Below, piece by piece: positions 14,116 to 49,974 of a DNA stretch of 64,000 nt. Below the pieces are notes generated by a model, which did no database searches, was not told the origin of the DNA, and was given only the letters and a program-made list of their open reading frames with translations. Position 1 is the first letter of the stretch, and each line of letters begins with the position of its first letter. This stretch comes from Agaricus subrufescens (taxonomy: Eukaryota; Basidiomycota; Agaricomycetes; Agaricales; Agaricaceae): positions 1,798,001 to 1,862,000 of the forward strand of contig CM057062.1 in the NCBI GenBank assembly GCA_029945375.1, read 5' to 3'. The position numbers were made by a program, and so were the translations under genes.

Positions 14116-17100
14116 ATGATCTACTGCTACTGTACTAAGTGTGAAGGCAGGAAGGAATACCTTCCTCGAACAGTCCGAAAGCATCTGAAAAAGGATGAAG
14201 ACTACTTGGAGCAATCAATAGACCCACGAGACACGGAGTTTATACAACGAGCGATTATAAAGACGCTGCAATCTTTGAATTCTGAGCTCGTTGAAGACGA
14301 GTCTGACCAGAGCATCCCTGCTTCCACCTCCGCACACAATTTCACCAGCTCAGATACCCAGGCTCTTGGTTACCACCTCAGTCCATCTCCTGATCCTATA
14401 CCCCCGGCCCTTGACGATATCGACGATACTGGTCGGTCTCTCAATCTCGCAGGCCCAGGCATCTTCGACAACTCAGATTCACCACTCAAACTCATGGGTC
14501 CAGACATTCCAGACAACTTTACTCCATCTCTTCCATTCAATGCCCCTGACTCTATATCCAAGGCCGATACTTGGGGTGAAGATAGTGACTCCGAGGATCC
14601 GAAAAGCGAGAGTGAAGGCAGCTGTAAAGCGTAGGCTTTACAGATCATCACTCAGTTCCCTTAAGTCACACTCGATACGCTTTAGCCCGTTAATTAGGGA
14701 ACGTAGTAAGTACGACAGTGGGGGTAAAAAGCAACTACTGTTCGTCACATAACATCATGAGTATATAAGCCCATCAGTCATCATTTACATAAGGTTCATG
14801 AGACAATGACCGGATCACTATGGTCATTGTAGAGAAGGGTTATTTTCCCCTTACAGCAGCTCTAGCATATATTCTCGGGTATCTGATGATGAAAACAGGA
14901 TGGATGTTGATTCATCTTCAGACTCTAGCAAGGTTATGTGCACAGATGATATTCCAGAGCTTGTCAAACTTTGGAATGACCTTTTAGGTGAGTATTGTAT
15001 TTAAAGAAATGTTTTCAAGTATTGAATTTGTTTGAAGGCAATTACACTCTACCCGAAAATCCACCAAACACACCTTTCACACCCCAAGAGCTAGATCAGT
15101 CTGAACATATTACACTAAAGCATTATATGGCTTGGCAAAACTCTAATGGGACCGTTGCTGCTTACAACGCACATCGGAGAGTTCTCCAAGATGTGCTTGG
15201 TGATGAACCAAAAGTTTTGTCACTCTACTGAGCTCGGTCCCTTGCCAAAGAATTGACACAACTACATCCCTGTTCTATCGATATGTGCCCAAACAGCTGT
15301 ATTGCCTATACTGGATCTTATGCTGGTCTTAACTCATGCCCTTTTGTGAAAAAAGGGAAGACGACTTGTGGTACTGCCCGTTACATATCCCCAAACAAGC
15401 CAGCTACTCAGTTTACCATTCTTCCTGTCATGAATAGAATCAAGGCAATGTTTGCAAATGTTGAGACTGCAAACTTGCTTCGTCACTGAGATCGTTGCTT
15501 GAAAGAGGCTATCTCTTTAGTTGCTACAGCTAAAGATGTTCCTCTTTCAGATTTTCCTACAGGAACTATTCACCGACATCATTTCCAAAACCTGGATTTG
15601 TTCCAGGATCCTCGTGATATTGCATTTGCTCTCTCAACTGATGGTGCTCAGCTGACGATGAAAAAGCAATCCAATACATGGGTTCTCATTCTTATCCTGC
15701 TTAACCTTCCCCCTGAAATCTGCTACCAATCAAATAATGTCATTATTGTCTTGGCAACACCTGGTCCCAACTCTCCTGGAAATATTGAATCATTCCTACA
15801 TCCTCTTTTTGAGGAGATGATACAGGCTAGTGAAGGACTGTGGATGTGGGATGCTATTGACTCATCCTACTTTGTCTTACGAGCATGGATTGTCATGGCC
15901 CTTGGAGACATGCTGGGATCAGCTAAACTTAACGGAATGGCTGGTCATTCAGCTATCTTTGGAGATCACTTTAGTCTCACTCAAGCTGCATATTCAAGCA
16001 TTCAATCTGGAGCAAAAGCACAATACTATCCATTAAATCCTCCTCAAAACGACTCCTATAATCCAACTCGACCACTCTATTCTGATGGAAAAGTCCCTCT
16101 CCGCACAGAAGATGATTATTGGAAAACTATTTCTTCACTTCTTGATCCATCAAATTCAAAAGCTACCACTACAAAAATCACAAAATCAACTGGAATATCA
16201 AGGATGCCACTATGTGCAGCTAGTGAAGCATTTATTCATCCCAGTTTTTTTCCTCTTGATCCTTTCCATCTTTTCATGGAAAACAATGCTCCATTTCTAT
16301 GGGACTTGTGGACAAGCACTGCTTTTAGTGGAGCTAATGAACACATCCATATGTCTGCTCAAATGACTAGAACACTTGGCCAGTGTGTTGTATCAGCTAT
16401 GGCAACTCTACCTCCCTCTTTCTGTGGTGTTATCCGGGATCCAGCTCTGAAGCAAAACAGCCAGTACAAGATGTATGAGTGGATGGGTCTTACTCTCTGG
16501 TATATGGTTCCCATCTGTCTTGAGATGGGGTTCAACTATCCTGTAGTTGAACATTATTCAGAGTTCATCGAAATTGTCACATTTGCTATGTCTCTACATC
16601 CACATACCAAGAGAGACCTTGGGCCTCTTCAAAGGAAGATAGTCAACTTTTTGCTATGCTTCGAGCAGCTCTACATTGGTGATGATCCAGAGAAGATTAA
16701 TCGGGCACGTTTATGCATATTCCAACTTATTCACATTCCTATTCATATCAAATGGAATGGATCTGTCCGGGTGGGATCACAAGCTACAGTGGAACGAACA
16801 ATTGGGGAGCTAGGTCATAAAATCCGGTCAAAAAAGGAGCCATTTGCCAATCTCAGCAATATTATTGTGGATAAAGAGCGTGTTCGCATTCTTGGGCTAC
16901 TATATCCAGATCTAGAACCCCAGAAACCACAACTTCCTCCTAAACTTCACCTTTTATCAAATTTTCCTCTCAAACTGCTTGATCATGCTAGCTACAATCT
17001 TGTAGTGGAGTATGTTTCAAAGGTTTTGGGATTTCATGTCACTGATCCAGATTCCATGGCCTTGTATGGGAAATTACAACTCAAAAATGGGCGTACTTTG

Positions 17101-17568
17101 CGAAGTAGGATATATGAAACACAGGGCAAGTTGTCAAAACGGAACTATCGCTGGTTTGAGGTAAGTAATCTCTTGTATATTTGTTGATGTATCTAAAGCT
17201 TTACAAACTAGGCTTTCCCAGACAATGTGACTGTTGGGCAACAAGATATGAGCCCTACACCAGAGATGCAAGTATATGGAGAGGTAATAATGTTTGTTGA
17301 AACTAAAGTTGGAGATCAGTGCATTCAAATGGTGGTATACAAACGGATCACAAATGTTTGTAGAAAGCTATGCACTCTTCGGGGAAAATGGGATTTGCAG
17401 AGTCAGGTTGATATTGCTTCAATAGAAGCAATAGTTGATATAGTAGGTATATGGGAATCAGGGTTCTCAGATTGGGTTTATATTTTGCGCAAGCATCCTG
17501 GAGTAGAGCTATTACATCTGGAGGAGAGAGGACAAATAAGGACAGATTTGGTAGATAAAGATGACTAG
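14116..17568 (+). pseudogene. Tnp2-type DDE transposase of inner element (two premature stops)
   Basis: The start at 14116 has a good context and precedes a Cys-rich N-terminal zinc-binding-like motif (CYCTKCEGRKEY). After an acidic linker come exons of which the last three are clear: an exon ending at 14987, 15038-17160 and 17212-17568 (introns 14988-15037 and 17161-17211). The core shows FALSTDGAQL (first Asp), ALGDMLGSAKLNGMAGH, then PLDPFHLFMENN and VERTIGELGHKI (likely Glu), as in Tnp2/CACTA-related transposases. The C-terminal exon has QVYGEV. In-frame TGA codons at 15229-15231 (after VLSLY) and 15487-15489 (after LLRH) sit where Arg would be CGA. The first intron borders (about 14630-14880) are unresolved. 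Confidence 0.8.
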
Positions 17569-18709: not shown

Positions 18710-20529
18710 TATGAGTCACAATATTGGGTACAGGTGCGCCAAATGCAGATGGTATAGTTTCTTTAGCGGCAGCAGTAGCCTCTCCTATATCACTCCATAT
18801 GTTGGGCTCAATGAAATAGTCTTGTTCTTGATGTTCCAAGTCCTTGAAGGTGCCGGTCCAGAGGAGAATCAAGTTTGGAATTAAATTTTCCCAGATAATA
18901 TGCATGAAATCAAATGGAAAAGAGGTCGGAAAAGTGATAGATGATATGGTACTGAGGATTGGAACTCCCTTGATACCATATTCCTTTGATAGCTTCTCAT
19001 GCTTAGCAATATTGCTGGCATTTCAACTTTGGCAGCTTGGGCAAGAAACTCATGATGATTTTGCAAGGGAAGATCTGACAGATCATATTGTTTGGGATTG
19101 ACATAGTGAAATCCATTTTGTTTTAGAGGAAGATAATAGACATTCGATGCTCCACCACGAATGCCTTTGATGTTACAAATCTGGCAAGGAGATATGCCAT
19201 TGGCACCTTTCATACGCATTACCATTGCCATTGCAGGGATATCACCAAATACTATGATCAAATGCACATGAAGGGAGAAAAATGAGGTGGTAGCCAGATC
19301 AAAGGTTCTAACTCCAATTGAAAGTTGGCGTAGTTCCTGAACCAATGGCCACAAGAATGAGTCCATATCATGGGGCTTCTTTGGTCCTGGAATAGTTCCA
19401 AGATTGATGCAGTAGCGCTTTTGGAACCGGATTTCAGGGGAAAGGTTGTAGTTAAAAAGTATGATGGGCCAGCAAGTTTTGTTTCGCCGTTTAAAGGGTG
19501 CAAATCCATCCATTGATAGTCCAAGAGCAATGTCATGTTTGTCAGAGAAGTAGCGAGAAGGTTGAGCATCTTTGGAGCCTTCAGTGGGGATGTTTTTGGT
19601 GAGCAACAATTGGTAGTGAGAGCCATCAAAGATGTCGGAAATCTTGCCTGGCTCATTCAGGAGATCTCCTCGGTAGCTCATCAACTTTGAGTGTTGGAGG
19701 TTAGATACCATGGCTTGGAGATGAGGGATGAGTGGGAGATAGGCAAAGACCTGCCATGGCTTCCCCCTTGCATCATGCACTGGCTCATGGCAATGCGGGC
19801 ATTCTGTCAGGTCTTTATATGGTCAGGTATAGCAGATACAGCTATTAATGCAACAGCTATAGTATCTTGCTTGAAAACCAGACAGCTCTTGAACATGTCT
19901 TTTTGTAACTTGGAGGGTAACATGTGGGGATGAGGGAAAGACAGCTGATAATAACCGGAACATTTTTTCAGTCAGATGTTGTTCCATTTTCAAGATCTAT
20001 TTTCAAAGCAAAATTAAGTCAATATCATGTAGATAATCATCTAGAGCTATATCAACAAAACCTAAGGTTTTGATACTGTAGCGGAAAATGTACCTGAGGA
20101 AGAATGTAGAAAGTTTTCCTCCACCCAGTCACCAAAAGTCAACTCAGCTTCTGTATATTCCTCTCCTATAGTCTCATTCTCCTCCTCAACACCCTCATCA
20201 TCATCACCTTCTCCCTCATCACTTTCCTCATTACCTTCTTTGCAGCTACCTTCATCATCTCCTTCATCAGGGGTAAGGGTTTGTAATCTTTTCCTCCTTT
20301 CATGTAGAGCATCGATTGGTGAGCCCAAATGCTTAGCAGGTAAGCTCATTCCCATGCCGTCTTCCTCTCCTTGTAGGAACTGCGTTGTTTCCAAAGTAGC
20401 TGCTGTGATCTTGGGTCTGGTCCTGCCTCTAAGATGTGCACATTTAGTGGAATATGTGACGGTCCAACCACATCCACATGTACAAGGGATTTTGGTGTTC
20501 TTTTTAGAGGGAATGGAGTTATCTGGCAT
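18703..20529 (-). pseudogene. Tnp2-type transposase, N-terminal half (outer element)
   Basis: The minus-strand gene starts at 20529. Exon 1 (20529-20094) has a CTCGCGWTVTY...CAHLRG zinc-like motif and a long acidic linker. After an intron, the next exon contains ECPHCHEPVHDARGKPW and AYLPLIPHLQ, then LGLSMDGFAPF (first Asp), VFGDIPAMAMVM, SPCQICNIKG (CxxC) and FDFMHIIWENLIPN, and ends at the inner element border after SAFGAPVPNIVTH. The protein continues at 10409. Damage besides the insertion: a TGA at 19823-19825 after SCICYT, and a frameshift near 19018 (the sequence after AAKVE continues in another frame as ASNIAKHEKL). Homology of motif order to Tnp2 transposases is from memory of the family. 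Confidence 0.8.
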
Positions 20530-40539: not shown

Positions 40540-41085
40540 TCATGTGATGATGCTAGGTATCTCGGAATCAGAGTGCTGGTGGTTGACGAGCGAGGATGCG
40601 TCAGGCAGAGAGATATTGGATTTGACGGTAGGGGGGTGTACGGGCCAAGCGCGTTGAGATGAAAGTTGCTGTGTAGAGGTTGAGATGGATATAGATGAGA
40701 AATCCACAAGTTTGAAAAGTGGAAGCTCACCAGTGGCGGTATATGACGATGCATCAAATCTTGAAGGAGGCCGAGGGAGTGGGAGGACTGGATGGCGTAG
40801 AGGGCAAGTGGGGCAGGGGCGCTGAATTTCCGCAACGATAGAGGGGGAGTACAGACTCTGTTGCAAGGAGCGGCACCGCAATAGAGCGGGGGGCGAAATT
40901 GCAACACGTTGATTGCAGCCGTCTGGGAAAAGATGGCTTGATGAAGGATACATGTATGCGCTGAACCATGGCAAAGATCCTATACAGCTAAATTCCAATG
41001 GAATCCACTGTAAAAAGGAGTAAGCAACAAGATTCAAACGGCGTATATTGCGATCGTTTACCATAGATGACAGAAATTCGGCCAA
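40540..41085 (-). CDS. Hypothetical ORF, 181 residues, possibly one exon of a larger gene
   Basis: The ORF begins MAEFLSSMVNDRNIRRLN and includes a hydrophobic segment (LVAYSFLQWIPLEFSCIG). A GTGAGC donor follows the codons for SSYTATG near 40727. A further minus-strand block lies at 40178-40543 (MICQWLAGFITTTFD). The two could be exons of one small gene, but the phase chain was not closed. No homology recognised. Confidence 0.3.
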   Translation of the reverse strand: MAEFLSSMVNDRNIRRLNLVAYSFLQWIPLEFSCIGSLPWFSAYMYPSSSHLFPDGCNQRVAISPPALLRCRSLQQSLYSPSIVAEIQRPCPTCPLRHPVLPLPRPPSRFDASSYTATGELPLFKLVDFSSISISTSTQQLSSQRAWPVHPPTVKSNISLPDASSLVNHQHSDSEIPSIIT

Positions 41086-41099
41086 TTTTTCCAGGCTGA

Positions 41100-43240
41100 G
41101 ATACCAGCGTAGACCATGTAGACTGTTCTTCGCTCACTGAGTATGGTACCCATCCTCAGGGCGATGAAAGAGCGTTCCATAGAAGGAGAGGTCTCTCCGA
41201 CCAAGCTGGAGCATCACTGGCGCCATATGGATTCAATTAGCTCAGGGCTTGGGTGGAAATGGGAATAAAAGATTGCTTACCTCGCGCTACTGCGGTGGGA
41301 TTGACCTGCAGTCGCCGCTCTATAGTCAAGGTGGTGTTGGAACTGGCGCGGTACCAAATTGTTGTGGATGTTTGAATATGGCGGTGACCCTACATGGCAC
41401 GAGGGTTCATCCATCCTCGTCCTCGATGCTTGTCGTTATCGTTTGGGGAGCTGTTTCGTAGACAGAGGCGGTGGTAGGAGGAGAGAAGGGCACTCGGCAT
41501 TTTCCAGACAACGCATCTTGGGACACTCATGCATAGAAACACCTTCGTCGGAGACCAAAGAGCGGGTAGCTGCTGGCTCGCTGATCAAGGCGGGGCGCGT
41601 CATTCTTAGCTCGCTATCAAAGTCGCTTGGTCTGTCTCTTGCTGATGCGCTTGCAGCCTTCGCACCCTTGCTGGGCTCTCGCCGGACCGCTCTTGGCTCA
41701 TCGGCTCGCGCTCTCTCCTGGGCCATCCTCCTTACCTCATTCCTCGCCAAGTTCCTCCACCGTCGCCATACGATCTCAATCTCCCGCCACCGCCGCTGTA
41801 CGAACAGTACACCTCTTAACAGGGTTTGTTTCCTCGACGGAGCGCTACCCCCTCTCGGGGCTCAAGTCCCAAGGTTGTACATATTGCTAACCAAGTAGGG
41901 AAATGTCATGCAGCAACTCGTCATGAATCATTGGATGCCTAGTTTGACTATGCCTTGGGTCGAATGTGAGTGTCTGTGCTTCTTTGCGCCTCATCCACAG
42001 TTCGAGTCCAAGAGCTGAATGCCGCCTGTCAGATTCGTGTTCGGCAGCTACGTTTGGAAGCGTGATGTAGAATACGCTTGGAATACGCAGACTTCAACGG
42101 CAAATGCATCACCTTCCAAATCCCTGTTGCTGCCCTCCTTGTTGGTTCTCTCATTGGGTATCTCTTGGGTATCTGTACGCCAATCCATCATTTGCGCGTA
42201 CCCACCCTCGAAGTGTCTCCCGGAACCACTACAAACATGTCTGCCCAGACCCTTACATCCTGTATTCATGCGCCATCATAGACACACTTCCCTTGAACAC
42301 CACTGCACTCTGGAGAATGAACGTATGGATCGACAAACTATGGAGCTTCACGGACCGCTGTGTCAAAATCGAAAAAGACACACCTCAGCTGGTCGACATC
42401 TGGTAAGTGCTTACTCGATCAATTTTGTTTTTCTGTCGCCTCAAATCTCTCATAGGCAGTTTGGTACTCCACGGTTGCACGATATCATGCCAATGATATT
42501 CAACTTATCCCTTCTGAAGGATCTTGCCTGGTCGCCTCCGATTCATTCAGCCTTCCAGAAAAACGTGCATCACTTCACGTCCTCCACCTCGGATACGAAA
42601 TATAAACTTGAGAAAATACTATTGTTGTATACTTCTTGGAACGGGGACTTTCCCTCGCGATACTACTGGAGTAGGCGCGGAACTTACCCTGTAACCCACA
42701 CCGTCGGCCACAAAGGCCGAGCGCTGATCCTTCACTGCTCCTTGCTGTCTACCTCAGCCGAGGCAACTTCATCGAGCACTGCGATGATCATGTCTCATGG
42801 AACTCGGCAATACCATAGCTACAACACCCTCCCATCCCTCCCCGACTGTTTCTTTGTCGGGAACAGTACCCACTCAGATGTCTTACCCAAGGACGAGCTC
42901 AAGAGAAGATACAGGGAGAAATGTCTCGTCGACATCAACATAGTGAGCAAGACAGTGGTGAAGGTGTGCGGGAGCGGTGCTCGGAAGGGCTAAAGATCAA
43001 AGAAGCGAAAACATCTTCAATAACAAAATCAAAAATCAAAAACGTGTAGGGGAAGATCTACGCCTTGACCAACGGCGACACCAAATGTTTACAAGAACTC
43101 AAAGAGGGCCTGCACATCAACGCCCTTTGATCTCTGTCCAACACCATCTTCTCCCCCACTCTCACTGCCGCCGCCGACAAAGACGACAACAACTCAGCCT
43201 TGCTTACAGATTTCGATTACAACTTTGTGTGGGACTGGGA
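41100..43240 (+). pseudogene. Plus-strand gene relic, unknown function
   Basis: The clearest block is 42290-42993: WRMNVWIDKLWSFTD...QLVDIW, then a GTAAGT donor (about 42404), an acceptor TCATAG, then QFGTPRLHDIMPMIFNLSL and a long open frame to 42993. Competing protein-like stretches in other frames of the same DNA suggest frameshifts. The upstream ORF at 41359-41898 has no supporting features. No family assigned. Confidence 0.3.
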
Positions 43241-44148: not shown

Positions 44149-45170
44149 CTAATACTTTGTATGACCACCTTTAGCCTTGATAACTGCCTGGCACCTCCTA
44201 GGCATACTTTCTATAAGTCTCTGACACTCTTCTGGAGTGATTTTGTTCCACTCTTTAGCTACCCTTTCCCACAAATCATGAACTCCTCTAGGTGGTTTGG
44301 AATATTCCTTCAACTTGTCCTTGAGGTTGATCCAAAGGTGTTCAATGGGATTTAAGTCAGGGGATTGGGCAGACCAGACTAGGACTTTGATGTTGTTGTC
44401 TTCAAACCACTTGTCTGTTCTTTTTGCCATGTGCTTGGGGTCATTATCATGTTGGAATATCCTCTTCCCCTCCTCCATCTCCAGTTTTTCAAAGCTGTCA
44501 ACCACTCCACTGTCCAAAATATCACAGTATTGCACAGAATCCATGATACCCTGAACCTCTGTAAGCATCCCAACTCCCTCCCATCCCATACAGCCCCATA
44601 CCATAAGGTTATTCCCTCCTCCATGTTTGACTGTAGGAGTAGTAGTCCTATCAGAAGGGCCCTCACCATTTTTCTTCCAGGTATACACCTTTCCATCTGA
44701 CTGAATCCTACATTAATCTTGGTTTCATCTGACCACAAGATCCTTTTCCAGTCCTCCACTGTCCAATTTTTGTGATAATGAGCAAATTTGAGACAGTCTC
44801 TTCTATGTTGCTGTTTGAGGAGAGGACATTTCTTCTTTACAACAGCCCTAAATGAACTCTCTTTGAGAGTGTTTCTGACTGTTTGAGGATGTACTGGACT
44901 GGGAATGATGTTGTTGATATACTGGGCACCCTGAACTGCATTATCCAGCTGGCCAGTAGTGATTTGGTGAATGATTGCCCTTTTGTCCTGAGAAGAAAGC
45001 TTAGCTGGACAACCCCCTAACATGTTCTCCTTGTCCTCATCAACCCCTTTCTTAATCCTCCCCACAGTAGACATCCCCAGACCAGTTCTAGACTGAATCT
45101 GACAAACAGAATAGCCTTCTTGAAGAAGAGATATGACAGAGGAGCATTGAGTAGAAGAAGTAGCTTTCAT
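44149..45170 (-). pseudogene. Tc1/mariner transposase, frameshifted
   Basis: The start ATG is at 45168-45170. The N-terminal part has two helix-turn-helix regions (SVISLLQEGYSVCQIQSRTG, then HPQTVRNTLKESSFR) around a linker GGCPAKLSSQDKR that replaces the usual GRPR. The catalytic core has WSDETKI (first Asp), then a frameshift near 44698-44706, after which the reading continues in the frame DGKVYTWKKNGEG to GHTKY with the stop at 44149-44151. That part contains QHDNDPKHMA (second Asp) and SPDLNPIEHLW (Glu), i.e. a DD34E catalytic triad. All three acidic residues are present; only the one small indel separates the copy from an open frame. Confidence 0.9.
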
Positions 45171-45315
45171 GGTGGTGGTTTAAGGTCAAGATGTGATTTA
45201 ATCAAACTTTGATGATGCAAATTTATACAAACAAGGTCACATGACATTCTCAAATATTTCTGTACTTTTTCGGATTTTTATGAGGGCTCTAGAACAAGAT
45301 TTGTCTCAGCTGAAT

Positions 45316-45542: not shown

Positions 45543-48500
45543 TCATGTACTTCTTGGGTGGTAAGGAACAATACAGTATGTGTCCCCCTCATGATCTCCA
45601 GGAAAAATTGCAACTTGGCCACCAGGAACTGCTCCACATACAAGGACTTGTAGATAGGGTGAAGTTTGTAAGAACCGTTTTGTTGCATGATCAATAACCT
45701 TATAAAGCCAAGAGAAAGTGAGGAATAACTGACTACAGTTCATGAACTGATGTACTTACACCCTGATTATGTAGAAAAGAAATAGTGAAGCATAGACCAG
45801 AGATCGGGAACTGATGTACTTACAAACTGACCCATGAGATTTGTGGAAGAGAAATAGTTAGTGACAGACCAGACTTGACCAACTGATGTACTTACTTCCT
45901 GATGCATGAGATTTGTGGAAGAGAAATAGTCAAAGACAGACCAGACTTCACCAACTGATGTACTTACACCCTGATGCATGAGAGTTGTGGAAGAGAAATA
46001 GTCAATAACAGACAAGACTTCACCAACTGATGTACTTACAGTCTGACGCATGAGATTTGTGGAAGAGAAATAGTCAATGACAGACCAGACTTCACTAACT
46101 GACGTACTTACATCCTGATGCATGAGATTTGTGGAAGACAAATAGTCAATGACAGACCAGACTTCACCAATTGATGTACTTACACCCTGATGCATGAGAT
46201 TTTTGGAAGAGAAATAGTCAATAACAGACCAGACTTCACCAACTGATGTACTTACAATCTGATGCATGATATTTGTGGAAGAGAAATAGTCAATGACAGA
46301 CCAGACTTCACCAACTGATGTACTTACAGCCTGATGCATGAGATTTGTGGAAGAGAAATAGTCAATGACAGACCAGACTTCACCAACTGATGTACTTACA
46401 TACTGATGCATGAGATTTGTGGAAGAGAAATAGTCAATGACAGACCAGACTTCACCAACTGATGTACTTACAATCTGACGCATGAGATTCGTGGAAGAGA
46501 ACTAGTCAATAGAGGACTAGCCTTCACCAACTGATGTACTTACATGCTGAAGCATGAGATTTGTGGAAGAGAAATAGTCAATGACAGACCAGACTTCACC
46601 AACTCATGTACTTACATGCTAATGCATGAAATTTGTGGAAGAGAAATAGTCAATGACAGACCAGACTTCACCAACTCATGTACTTACAGCCTGATGCATG
46701 AGAGTTGTGGAAGAGAAATAGTCAATGACAGACCAGACTTCACCAACTGATGTACTTACATACTGATGCATGAGATTCATGGAAGACAAATAGTCAATGA
46801 CAGACCAGACTTCACCAACTCATGTACTTACAATCTGATGCATGAGATTTGTGGAAGAGAACTAGTCAATGGAAGCCTAGCCTTCACCAACTGATGTACT
46901 TACATGCTGATGCATGAGATTTGTGGAAGAGAAATAGTCAATAACAGACAAGACTTCACCAACTGATGTACTTACATGCTAATGCATGAGATTTGTGGAA
47001 GAGAAATAGTCAAAGACAGACCAGACTTCACCAACTGATGTACTTACACGCTGATGCATGAGATTTGTGGAAGAGAAATAGTCAATGACAGACCAGACTT
47101 CACCAACTCATGTACTTACACCCTGATGCATGAGATTTGTTGAAGAGAAATAGTCACTGACAGACCAGACATCACCAACTGATGTACTTACACCCTGATG
47201 CATGAGATTTGTGGAAGAGAAATAGTCAATGACAGACCAGACTTTACCAACTGATGTACTTACATGCTGATGCATGAGATTTGTGGAAGAGAAATAGTCA
47301 ATGACAGACCAGACTTCACCAATTGATGTACTTACAACCTGATCCATCAGATTTGTGCGACAAAATAGTCAATAACAGTCTGGACTTCACCAACTCATTT
47401 ACTTACCACTCTAACCATATATTTTCCATTATCATCAAAGTCAACATCTATATCCTTGTAGTAGACCTCTCGGAACATCCCACTTTTACCAAGTTCATCT
47501 CGAAATTCCTGTAACAATAGTCAGAAATTCCTATCTTTGATACCAAGTCCAATACTACCTTCCATGCACCAAATGCTTTCCTAACAAATACATATACAAT
47601 GCTAACACTGTAATTAGCACTCCACAAACTATCATTGAAGTTGCAAAGCCTGATCATGTTAATATTCGAGACGGCATCAAACTCAATATCCTTTTGATGC
47701 AACTGTGACGAAATCCCTTGCTGAGCCTTAGATCTGTTAACTATCTCGGTTAGTAGTCTTTTGCCCATTTCTGCAAGAATATCTCTAGTAAATCCTATAA
47801 TTTCTTCCTCCGGGAGTTCTGGCATTCCGGCACTGATAAATTTGCCAGCTGAAAGCGTGTATGAGCATTACTCAAATATGATGAGCTATACTCAAACGTA
47901 CCTGATTCCTCGCCACAATATTTATCCCACAACTTGACATAGCCCAGTAACACATCGTGCTCAATACCATCAGCATCAATATAAAACTTCCCCGATCTTT
48001 GCTCATCCACCAGGTAGTCGGCAAAAGAAGCATGTAAGAATGTCAACGGCATCTTATGCGCTTCCTCTCGAGACGGTATCTTGAGGGTTGAAATACATTT
48101 GATGAGAGCGGGACGGACCTGATCCGGATCCAGCTGGAGAACCAGAGCCATGCCTCTTAGTGTGTGGGATTTCAACGAAGCACGGATTCCCCAAGGATCA
48201 TCGTTGCGGAACGCAAGTGCTAGCGCAAGCAAGTGTTGCGCTGCGGGTAGCGACTTCACTGGGATCTTTGAGAGAATCTCGGTGTACAGGTTGTCGAGAT
48301 TCCTGAAGGGCTGCTCCTCGCTCGGAACACACTTCGAACGATCAATGACGGATAAGACAAGACTGAGGCGCGACACGGGATTACCCTCCTCAGGGTCCAT
48401 GATGAACCGAACCGCAGTTGCGGCGAAAACAAAGAGGCCAGACGAAGCAGTTGCTAGCTTTGTGACGTCAGTTTTCACTGGCCAATTCGTGGGAACGACA

Positions 48501-49974
48501 CCAGCAAACTTGCGTTGTATGACGGCGAAGCTTTCATCCAAGAAGCGTGCAGCATCTGTGCGAGCATCCGGGTCATCGATGGAGATGGTGTATGACTTGA
48601 ACTGTCCTTGCATTGGCGCCTCCCTGAACGCATTCATTATATACAACTCCAGACAACTCGCAATGACCCAGGTAAGGGGTGCATCCGGATAATCCTGCAT
48701 AAATGTTCCGATGAGGCCGATGATGTGTTGTTGGGCGTCTGCACCCTCAAGTTCATCAAGTCCATCCAGCAATATATCCAAGGGTGGCCCATCGACTCCA
48801 ATCTTCCCTACTCCGAATGGCTCGATGATGAAGATTTGAAATTGTGTTTCCATATCTGTCTTAAGGATGAGGGGGTCGGCAGCAATCCGATCAACGATAT
48901 AATTTCGGTAAGCTTCGATAGAAACAGCGAGTCGGTACCCGATAGTGGTGAAGACCTGGTTCAGGTTGTTACATTTATTGGGTCGTGAAATGAATACAGA
49001 AATGACGGGATGGTCCGCATTTTCCGTGTAGGTCTGCATGACGGCGGATTTACCAACGCCTGCTGGACCAGTAAGGTGAAAAAGGGATTCGGAGCAGGAG
49101 GCGTCTTTGAACCAAGCCAGGAGCCATTTGAGAATTCCTTCACGTGTGCTGGGATGACACCTGGGGCGCTACTCGCGGGAGGCATCGTTTGGTGCGGAAC
49201 CATCCATGACATACTCTAAAAGCAGTTTTATCACTGTGAACAAGGCAAATGAGTTGAGTTCTCGAAGAAATAAGATGACGGGTCTTACTAGGGTGTATCC
49301 CGCCCTCTCTTTCCCCAAAGGTGCCACCGTAGATATTAAAGCGATGAGCTCCAGCGAAATAGCTGCCTGTACCAGACGGAACTAAGGCGAACATGAGCTC
49401 CAATTGACATCATTCAAATAAACACACAGCCGCACCTTGCAAATTCCATGAAGACGAATCATAATTTCCAGCACCGGATTGATCGATCACAGCAGTGATA
49501 GGCGTCAGTGGGGCGAATGAGGGAGGGGCTGGGGCAACCATGAATCCTGACTCTCTCATCATACAAATACACACAAAAACACACCTAGGACATTGTGTGA
49601 AGGCGAAACATGACTTTCGGCATTGACATCATGAGCTATGGTGGCGATAGGTGTCGGTTCGATGGGTGGAACAGGACATGAGGCAGTCATGAACTTGTGT
49701 TACTAAACAAGTATACGCAGAAACATACCTCCTGTAGCCTGTAAAGACGAGGGACGATTTCCGGAGCTGGAGTCATGGATCATGCTGGCAGTGGGCCTCG
49801 GCTGGACAGATTGGAGAGGGACTGAAGCGACCATAAAATCGGATTGTGTCCTAGTGCAAGGATCTGGAGCATACCTGAGATTCCCGGTGAAGACCCAGAG
49901 GAGCCTCCCAGCCCAAGCGGATCGACCGTGCTGCTATTACGCCTACGTTTAAACAGCCCAAAGCAACAGGCCAT
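45543..49974 (-). CDS. NACHT (STAND) NTPase, NLR-like, with a ladder of single-codon microexons; probable in-frame stop
   Basis: The start is 49974 (MACCFGLFKRRR, with Cys residues that could be lipidated). Short N-terminal exons follow, then exons 49546-49436, 49366-49289, 49233-47902, 47848-47559, 47508-47407, 23 three-base microexons (47338 to 45760) and a terminal exon 45698-45543; phases close from 49546 onward. Motifs: SYFAGAHRFNIYGGTF; Walker A GPAGVGKSA; Walker B LDILLDGLDEL; then helical NACHT-associated sequence and a C-terminal domain ending VPGGQVAIFPGDHEGDTYC. NACHT STAND proteins in fungi act in non-self recognition and cell death. A TAG (49169-49171) lies in frame 80 nt before Walker A, so this allele is truncated unless an extra splice avoids it. 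The C-terminal domain is not recognised. Confidence 0.72.
45699..47406 (-). repeat. 72-bp intron/microexon ladder: 24 intron-like units and 23 three-base exons
   Basis: The minus-strand unit is GTAAGTACATCAG..., with CATTGAC about 30 nt before the end, a T/C-rich tract and CATCAG: 69 nt, followed by 3 nt. Donor G positions are 47406, 47335, 47263, 47191, 47119, 47047, 46975, 46903, 46831, 46759, 46687, 46615, 46543, 46471, 46399, 46327, 46255, 46183, 46111, 46039, 45967, 45895, 45823 and 45759. All 24 donors are GTAAGT and all 24 ends are AG. Unit 1 is 68 nt and units 23 and 24 are 61 nt; all others are 69. The interposed triplets are CAT x5, GGT x5, ATT x3, TAT x2, GCT x2 and one each of GTT, CGT, GAT, ACT, GAA and TTT. 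Unspliced, stops occur in units 1, 23, 24 and in the bodies near 46500 and 46860, so the array is not one open repeat protein. Confidence 0.9.
49420..49865 (-). repeat. Repeated N-terminal exon modules of the NACHT gene
   Basis: Three modules share a pattern of short hydrophobic start, Pro-rich middle and Ser-rich end. They are about 49740-49822 (VPLQSVQPRPTASMIHD), about 49585-49675 (MTASCPVPPIEPTPIATIAHD) and 49436-49546 (MVAPAPPSFAPLTPITAVID), each ending at a GT donor. Introns are 50-70 nt. Two modules join in phase 1; one acceptor (about 49680) does not, so it may be skipped or damaged. Confidence 0.55.

Follow-up and report, generated by a model that had tools for sequence, protein, structure and literature searches.

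The ladder and its host gene

The DNA analysed here, called the window, is a stretch of 64,000 nucleotides of Agaricus subrufescens (contig CM057062.1, positions 1,798,001 to 1,862,000). Its minus strand carries a gene with a NACHT-type NTPase exon, and near the 3' end of this gene there is a tandem array of intron-like units. The features of the gene are listed below in window positions.

49169..49171, minus strand: in-frame stop TAG immediately before the NACHT exon of the window copy; the two paralogues read at this place are open
47902..49168, minus strand: exon A, NACHT-type NTPase exon of 422 residues, open (open frame, gene model, PF24883 match and paralogues); its upstream start is provisional
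47559..47848, minus strand: exon B of the gene model, its donor picked by eye from likeness to one paralogue and to the protein P0001
47407..47508, minus strand: exon C, whose phase-0 end abuts the first GTAAGT
45699..47406, minus strand: ladder of 24 putatively spliced introns and 23 single-codon microexons, with the codon string VHGGRHHIYAHHIYAIGDTGEFG
Microexons of the ladder, minus strand, 3 nt each, upper ends at 47338, 47266, 47194, 47122, 47050, 46978, 46906, 46834, 46762, 46690, 46618, 46546, 46474, 46402, 46330, 46258, 46186, 46114, 46042, 45970, 45898, 45826 and 45762
45543..45698, minus strand: exon D, conserved last exon with a phase-0 start, 51 residues and a stop

The array (47406 to 45699) parses into 24 units of the form GTAAGT...AG with 23 spacers of 3 nt each, as the sequence-only reading of this DNA had described. 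Every unit ends in AG-NNN before the next GTAAGT or before exon D, and the unit lengths including the spacer are 71, 72 (21 units), 64 and 64 nt. The middle 21 units are near-identical, with 72 nt made up of a 69-nt intron and a codon. Units 1, 23 and 24 have diverged introns (68, 61 and 61 nt), so the near-identity that had been claimed for all 24 introns holds for the middle 21. Tandem Repeats Finder gives a period of 72 and 22.8 copies for the array. Among the middle units, the first two spacer bases are off consensus in 13 and 12 of 21 and the third in one, and every intron column is off consensus in at most four. Exons C and D, which the earlier reading had placed in phase 0 at either end of the array, fit the gene model and have homologues beside other arrays.

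The gene model predicts a protein of 604 residues, which matches PF24883 (NPHP3_N) at 35.5 bits (cut-off 24.8) and has a P-loop seen by eye; PF05729 (NACHT) scores 12.6 bits, under its cut-off of 26.7. The assignment to a NACHT-type gene made from the sequence alone is borne out by the first of these matches. The predicted protein has the NACHT/NPHP3_N-like NTPase domain that defines a fungal NLR or NACHT-type STAND protein. No Pfam match to WD40, ANK or TPR repeats was found in it at E<=1. About half of fungal NLRs are without annotated parts, therefore a missing match to these repeats does not exclude the NLR family.

Array loci across the genome

A total of 23 array loci of NACHT-type paralogues were parsed in the 44.65-Mb genome, 18 when five copies are left out (C6:2400k, C6:2314k, C25:0k, C25:66k and C25:132k). 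These paralogous arrays, the hypervariable codon of their units and the stop upstream of the window NACHT exon go beyond the sequence-only reading. The pattern YAG-NNN-GTAAGT-N44..70-YAG-NNN-GTAAGT has 325 matches genome-wide and none in a backwards-read control. Parsed array stretches hold 302 of the 325, a few more lie at C4:924.9-925.3k, and most of the other 23 are unplaced. Two subfamilies are found, with 72-nt units on C6, C8 and C9 and 71-nt units on C1, C4, C13 and C25. Searches with the 72-nt unit and with the 71-nt variant gave 213 and 113 genome matches, and all those listed lie in array loci. For the places listed, an invasion of unrelated genes by introners was rejected.

The arrays parsed contain 4 to 31 spacers. 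Homologues of exons C and D flank them, except that a hit to exon D is missing at C8:1407k and one to exon C at C8:1390k. At C8:1407k the array gene is followed by a 264-bp tandem array. The best 21 hits in a search with exon A have 54–100% identity and no stop within the match; 20 of these adjoin an array that was read, the remaining one being C27:62k. Among the matches listed, no full-length hit to exon A lies beside the array loci C8:1390k, C6:2805k and C13:1375k, and exon C of C6:2805k contains a stop. Part of the array loci are damaged.

The cross-species search returned a single protein, P0001 (JGI metagenome), with 71% identity to C6:2.19M. On this likeness P0001 is assigned to the array clade; it ends before the array. 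A scan of viral contigs with the pattern gave no matches.

The window array copy (C6:1844k) is identical over 4601 bp to C6:2400k (at C6:2.40M), 556,440 bp away on the same contig, and a 1301-bp piece at window 40600-41900 is also identical between the two regions. This identity may reflect a recent duplication or an assembly effect. The stop upstream of the NACHT exon is present in both copies, and the window copy may be a recent pseudogene or the source of a shortened product. The 40600-41900 sequence recurs at 67–79% identity about 2–6 kb from other array genes (C6:2200k, C6:2204k, C8:1359k, C9:1373k, C9:1420k and C6:2790k). This suggests that the arrays may move together with a linked gene or element; a clear reading frame was looked for in 40600-41900 and none was found.

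Transposase sequences also occur in the window. Tc1/mariner-like pieces (HTH_Tnp_Tc3_2, DDE_3) lie right downstream of the array gene at 44152-45179 on the minus strand, and tnp2-type ORFs (PF02992) lie at 15490-17187 on the plus strand and 18881-19822 on the minus strand. Elsewhere in the assembly, many DUF6533 hits (145 genome matches) pair in mirror order and with equal scores between C1 1.67-2.0M and C2 0.25-0.57M. These pairs look like two haplotypes or a large inverted duplication in the assembly.

Splice signals and spacers

An HMM of the intron body alone, made from units first found through their splice sites, gave 215 hits for the 72-nt family and 293 for the 71-nt family, of which 138 and 62 are full-length and gapless. 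Nine columns were taken as signal: the six donor bases, the branch A and the AG. In the 138 units of the 72-nt family, signal cells are off consensus in 10 of 1242 cases versus 378 of 8280 other intron cells; in the 62 units of the 71-nt family the counts are 11 of 558 versus 387 of 3658. Random sets of nine columns were equally conserved in 0.27% (72-nt) and 0.15% (71-nt) of draws. The signals are therefore better conserved than the intron bodies in both families, as the earlier reading had seen for the donor and terminal AG of the window units. Very small fungal exons can be spliced, since a 1-nt exon in Fusarium is described as confirmed by reads.

Two diverged loci, C13:1375k and C25:132k, differ at 38 of 927 ordinary intron sites and in 7 gap columns. 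No differences are found at 110 splice-signal sites, at 99 sites of exon C, at 150 sites of exon D, or at 63 spacer sites, of which 45 are true (15 spacers) and 18 come from six by-eye false matches inside introns. The zero at the 45 true microexon sites could, taken alone, be chance. The introns of the two loci have changed length by 1–3 nt with the codons untouched. The whole pattern is what would be expected of spliced introns between coding codons, and it is hard to fit with a single long intron.

The array could in that latter case be an intronic minisatellite removed whole, with a direct junction of exons C and D and with relic splice sites inside. Exons C and D do join in frame in the gene model when the array is omitted, tandem arrays homogenise by themselves, and the damage to part of the arrays would also agree. 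The conservation of splice signals beyond that of the intron bodies in both unit families speaks against it, as do the unchanged spacers and signals between C13:1375k and C25:132k, the confinement of hypervariation to the first two spacer bases and the lack of stops among the spacers. Removal as one long intron is therefore considered improbable.

Across the 23 loci, 376 of 384 spacers are 3 nt long while intron lengths vary, a count that leans towards 3 nt because the parser favours an AG 3 nt before the donor where one is present. Constant spacer length is in any case a test of low power, as indels would rarely fall in just 3 of 72 bases. The 71-nt units, although not a multiple of three, still have 3-nt spacers. 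Of the eight exceptions, the 39-nt spacer is a parse error, because the pattern search gives the spacer TAT at this place. In three the usual AG is gone and the next one is 12, 12 and 15 nt away, and those of 2, 8, 45 and 67 nt look degenerate. Two further codons each in C13:1375k and C25:132k are missed by the parse and shown by the alignment.

Within arrays, diversity per site (69-nt introns) is 0.062 in the intron and 0.644, 0.736 and 0.126 at codon bases 1, 2 and 3. The 18 arrays that remain without the five copies have 305 spacers; 297 of them are 3 nt long, and 254 of these read NNT. None of the 297 is a stop codon, where 2.2 would be expected if bases were independent; this is weak evidence for coding spacers. 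Bases 1 and 2 of the NNT codons are non-independent (chi-square 41.6, versus a largest value of 28.7 in 2000 shuffles), and codon use differs among arrays (698, versus a maximum of 548 in 500 shuffles). These codon statistics are descriptive, since the units are not independent of one another. The arrays C9:1369k and C9:1416k have many A-ending codons (CGA, CAA, GGA and GAA), several of them one change from a stop, and none was seen to be a stop; in most other arrays nearly every codon is NNT.

The 72-nt unit might also stay unspliced and code for a protein repeat of 24 residues, one of them variable. The length of this unit is a multiple of three, and there is an open read-through stretch of 244 residues. 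The read-through frame, however, has stops in 10 of the 24 window units, in units 1, 23 and 24 as the sequence-only reading had reported and also in 5, 6, 8, 9, 11, 12 and 13, and the 71-nt family shifts frame with every unit. An unspliced repeat is ruled out on these two counts, and practically no weight is left to it.

The splicing of near-identical units could take another form, in which donors and acceptors pair at random, so that the codons retained differ from one mRNA to the next. A single locus would then yield the diversity that counts through its transcripts. The donor and acceptor are common to all units and the spacers are all symmetric, and alternatively spliced codon-sized microexons are described for a truffle family (PMC4986451, PMC10197012, PMC3689799, PMC9815663). 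In the C13 and C25 copies, however, the introns have diverged and the codons are the same, which suggests that a fixed codon order matters. Random pairing is accordingly thought unlikely as the main source of diversity.

Origin and diversification of the ladder

Seven paralogues that have no array (C6:3067k, C9:1523k, C6:2871k, C15:105k, C6:3082k, C36:167k and C10:369k) carry, as judged by eye, one ordinary intron at the ladder's place. The paralogue C7:2389k has two introns there with a 21-nt exon between them, and one of the two resembles an array unit (also by eye). The simplest reading is that the ladder formed from one intron inside this NACHT-type clade. The presence of single-intron paralogues in the same genome suggests a local origin rather than descent shared with the truffle genes.

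Unit pairs that have identical introns within an array often differ in the codon (87 of 105 for 69-nt introns and 11 of 17 for 68-nt introns). Where the introns on both sides are identical, the codon differs in 19 of 25 pairs, 18 of the 25 pairs being from two arrays. Over all intron lengths it differs in 98 of 122 pairs (80%), versus 86.4% (sd 2.6 points) after a shuffle of codons within arrays. The codon is therefore nearly unlinked from the adjacent intron.

Near-identical copies differ in clusters. Between C6:2213k and C6:2314k, 17 of 30 difference events fall inside one array stretch of about 350 nt. Between C1:5904k and C25:67k, 28 of 36 are confined to a segment of about 200 nt that contains a further copy of a TAT-ATG unit pair. 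As judged from these alignments, the clusters are attributed to conversion or duplication of units. For identical introns beside differing codons, a guess is short conversion tracts combined with selection on the peptide.

A hypermutation mechanism aimed at the two spacer bases, whether or not the units are spliced, would also account for the 87 of 105 pairs with differing codons between identical 69-nt introns. The 3.9-fold excess in the 69-nt family would however predict about 4.8 changes in 30 bases between C13 and C25, where none was found. Base 3 is unaffected, and the patches in which near-identical copies differ include introns. Hypermutation is for these reasons held to be very improbable.

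The units are probably phase-0 single-codon microexons, in a ladder multiplied from one intron, that are spliced one by one into a variable peptide in the C-terminal region of an NLR. In one NACHT-type (NLR-like) clade, a single intron close to the 3' end of the ancestral gene would have multiplied into a ladder of short introns one codon apart. Each intron would be removed separately, by intron definition; in the mRNA the codons would then stand side by side and encode a variable peptide, with a conserved part of the C-terminal region on either side. With all microexons 3 nt long and in phase 0, the frame would be kept whenever a unit is gained, lost, copied or skipped. Germline change would come through duplication and conversion of units, with unit exchange and selection presumably keeping the peptide diverse. 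Splicing of the units as drawn is inferred from the sequence, and the role of the peptide as a recognition surface by analogy; alternative splicing may add further variants. Points against this explanation are the stop that precedes the NACHT exon both in the window copy and at C6:2400k, the damaged array loci, and the eight of 384 spacers that are not 3 nt long.

A more far-reaching proposal, put forward tentatively, is that the ladders are a second, independently evolved library of codons insulated by introns, here in a basidiomycete NLR clade. Each residue of a variable recognition peptide would be a cassette of its own, mostly NNT, with homologous intron DNA on both sides, and recombination would rewrite the peptide codon by codon at no risk to the frame and no risk of stops, with splice mixtures from one locus in addition. 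Provided that splicing follows this model, the variable part of a whole receptor clade would escape gene finders, and at least two fungal lineages would build receptor diversity from one-codon exons. The ladder is a clean system in which to see how the spliceosome deals with some two dozen near-identical introns that lie only 3 nt from each other. It also allows one to ask how introns can come to be identical when the codons between them stay diverse, and what the peptides recognise.

Several known systems share parts of this arrangement. Fungal introner-like elements (PMC4457414) are likewise near-identical introns multiplied in one genome, but are described there in unrelated genes, whereas every match listed here is in tandem arrays of one gene clade. 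The micro-exon genes of Schistosoma (PMC10526429) also have many tiny exons, mostly multiples of three, and variable proteins. Unlike the ladder, they have exons of up to 81 bp, introns of up to 5 kb that are not described as near-identical, and secreted products. Most of the coding sequence of such genes is in micro-exons, which is not so here, with 422 codons in exon A and 23 in the ladder. The HYP effectors of the potato cyst nematode (PMC11228951) have a hypervariable domain made by ordering small units; as described, however, that domain is a single exon. The nwd/hnwd NLRs of Podospora anserina, with WD40 repeats (PMC2873952), are similar in their near-identical repeats, concerted evolution, few diversified codons per repeat and exchange of units within and between paralogues. 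In those genes the whole repeat is coding, according to the same source, whereas all but one codon of each unit here is predicted to be intron.

The closest likeness is to the NACHT-ANK genes of Tuber melanosporum, for which tens of alternatively spliced 3-bp microexons are credited to Iotti et al. 2012 (PMC4986451, PMC10197012, PMC3689799, PMC9815663). The statement in the sequence-only reading that no such case was known is contradicted by these citations. Both systems have an expanded NACHT family and tens of 3-nt exons, the exon structure here being deduced from sequence, and the truffle microexons are said to diversify a C-terminal recognition part. By description, the two differ in that the host here is an agaricomycete, that the window model protein has no ANK match in Pfam, and that alternative splicing is reported for the truffle only. 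The genome analysed here, of 44.65 Mb against about 125 Mb in T. melanosporum, also has 145 matches to DUF6533, a basidiomycete family. No other family of codon-sized microexons was found among the papers listed by searches of an open-access collection, which omits most subscription journals. What looks new here is the agaricomycete host, the lack of an ANK match, the uncoupling of codon diversity from intron identity, and the origin from one intron. The ladder family is thus most likely one of spliced single-codon microexons giving a hypervariable peptide near the C-terminus of an NLR, and a variant of a known, rarely noticed arrangement.
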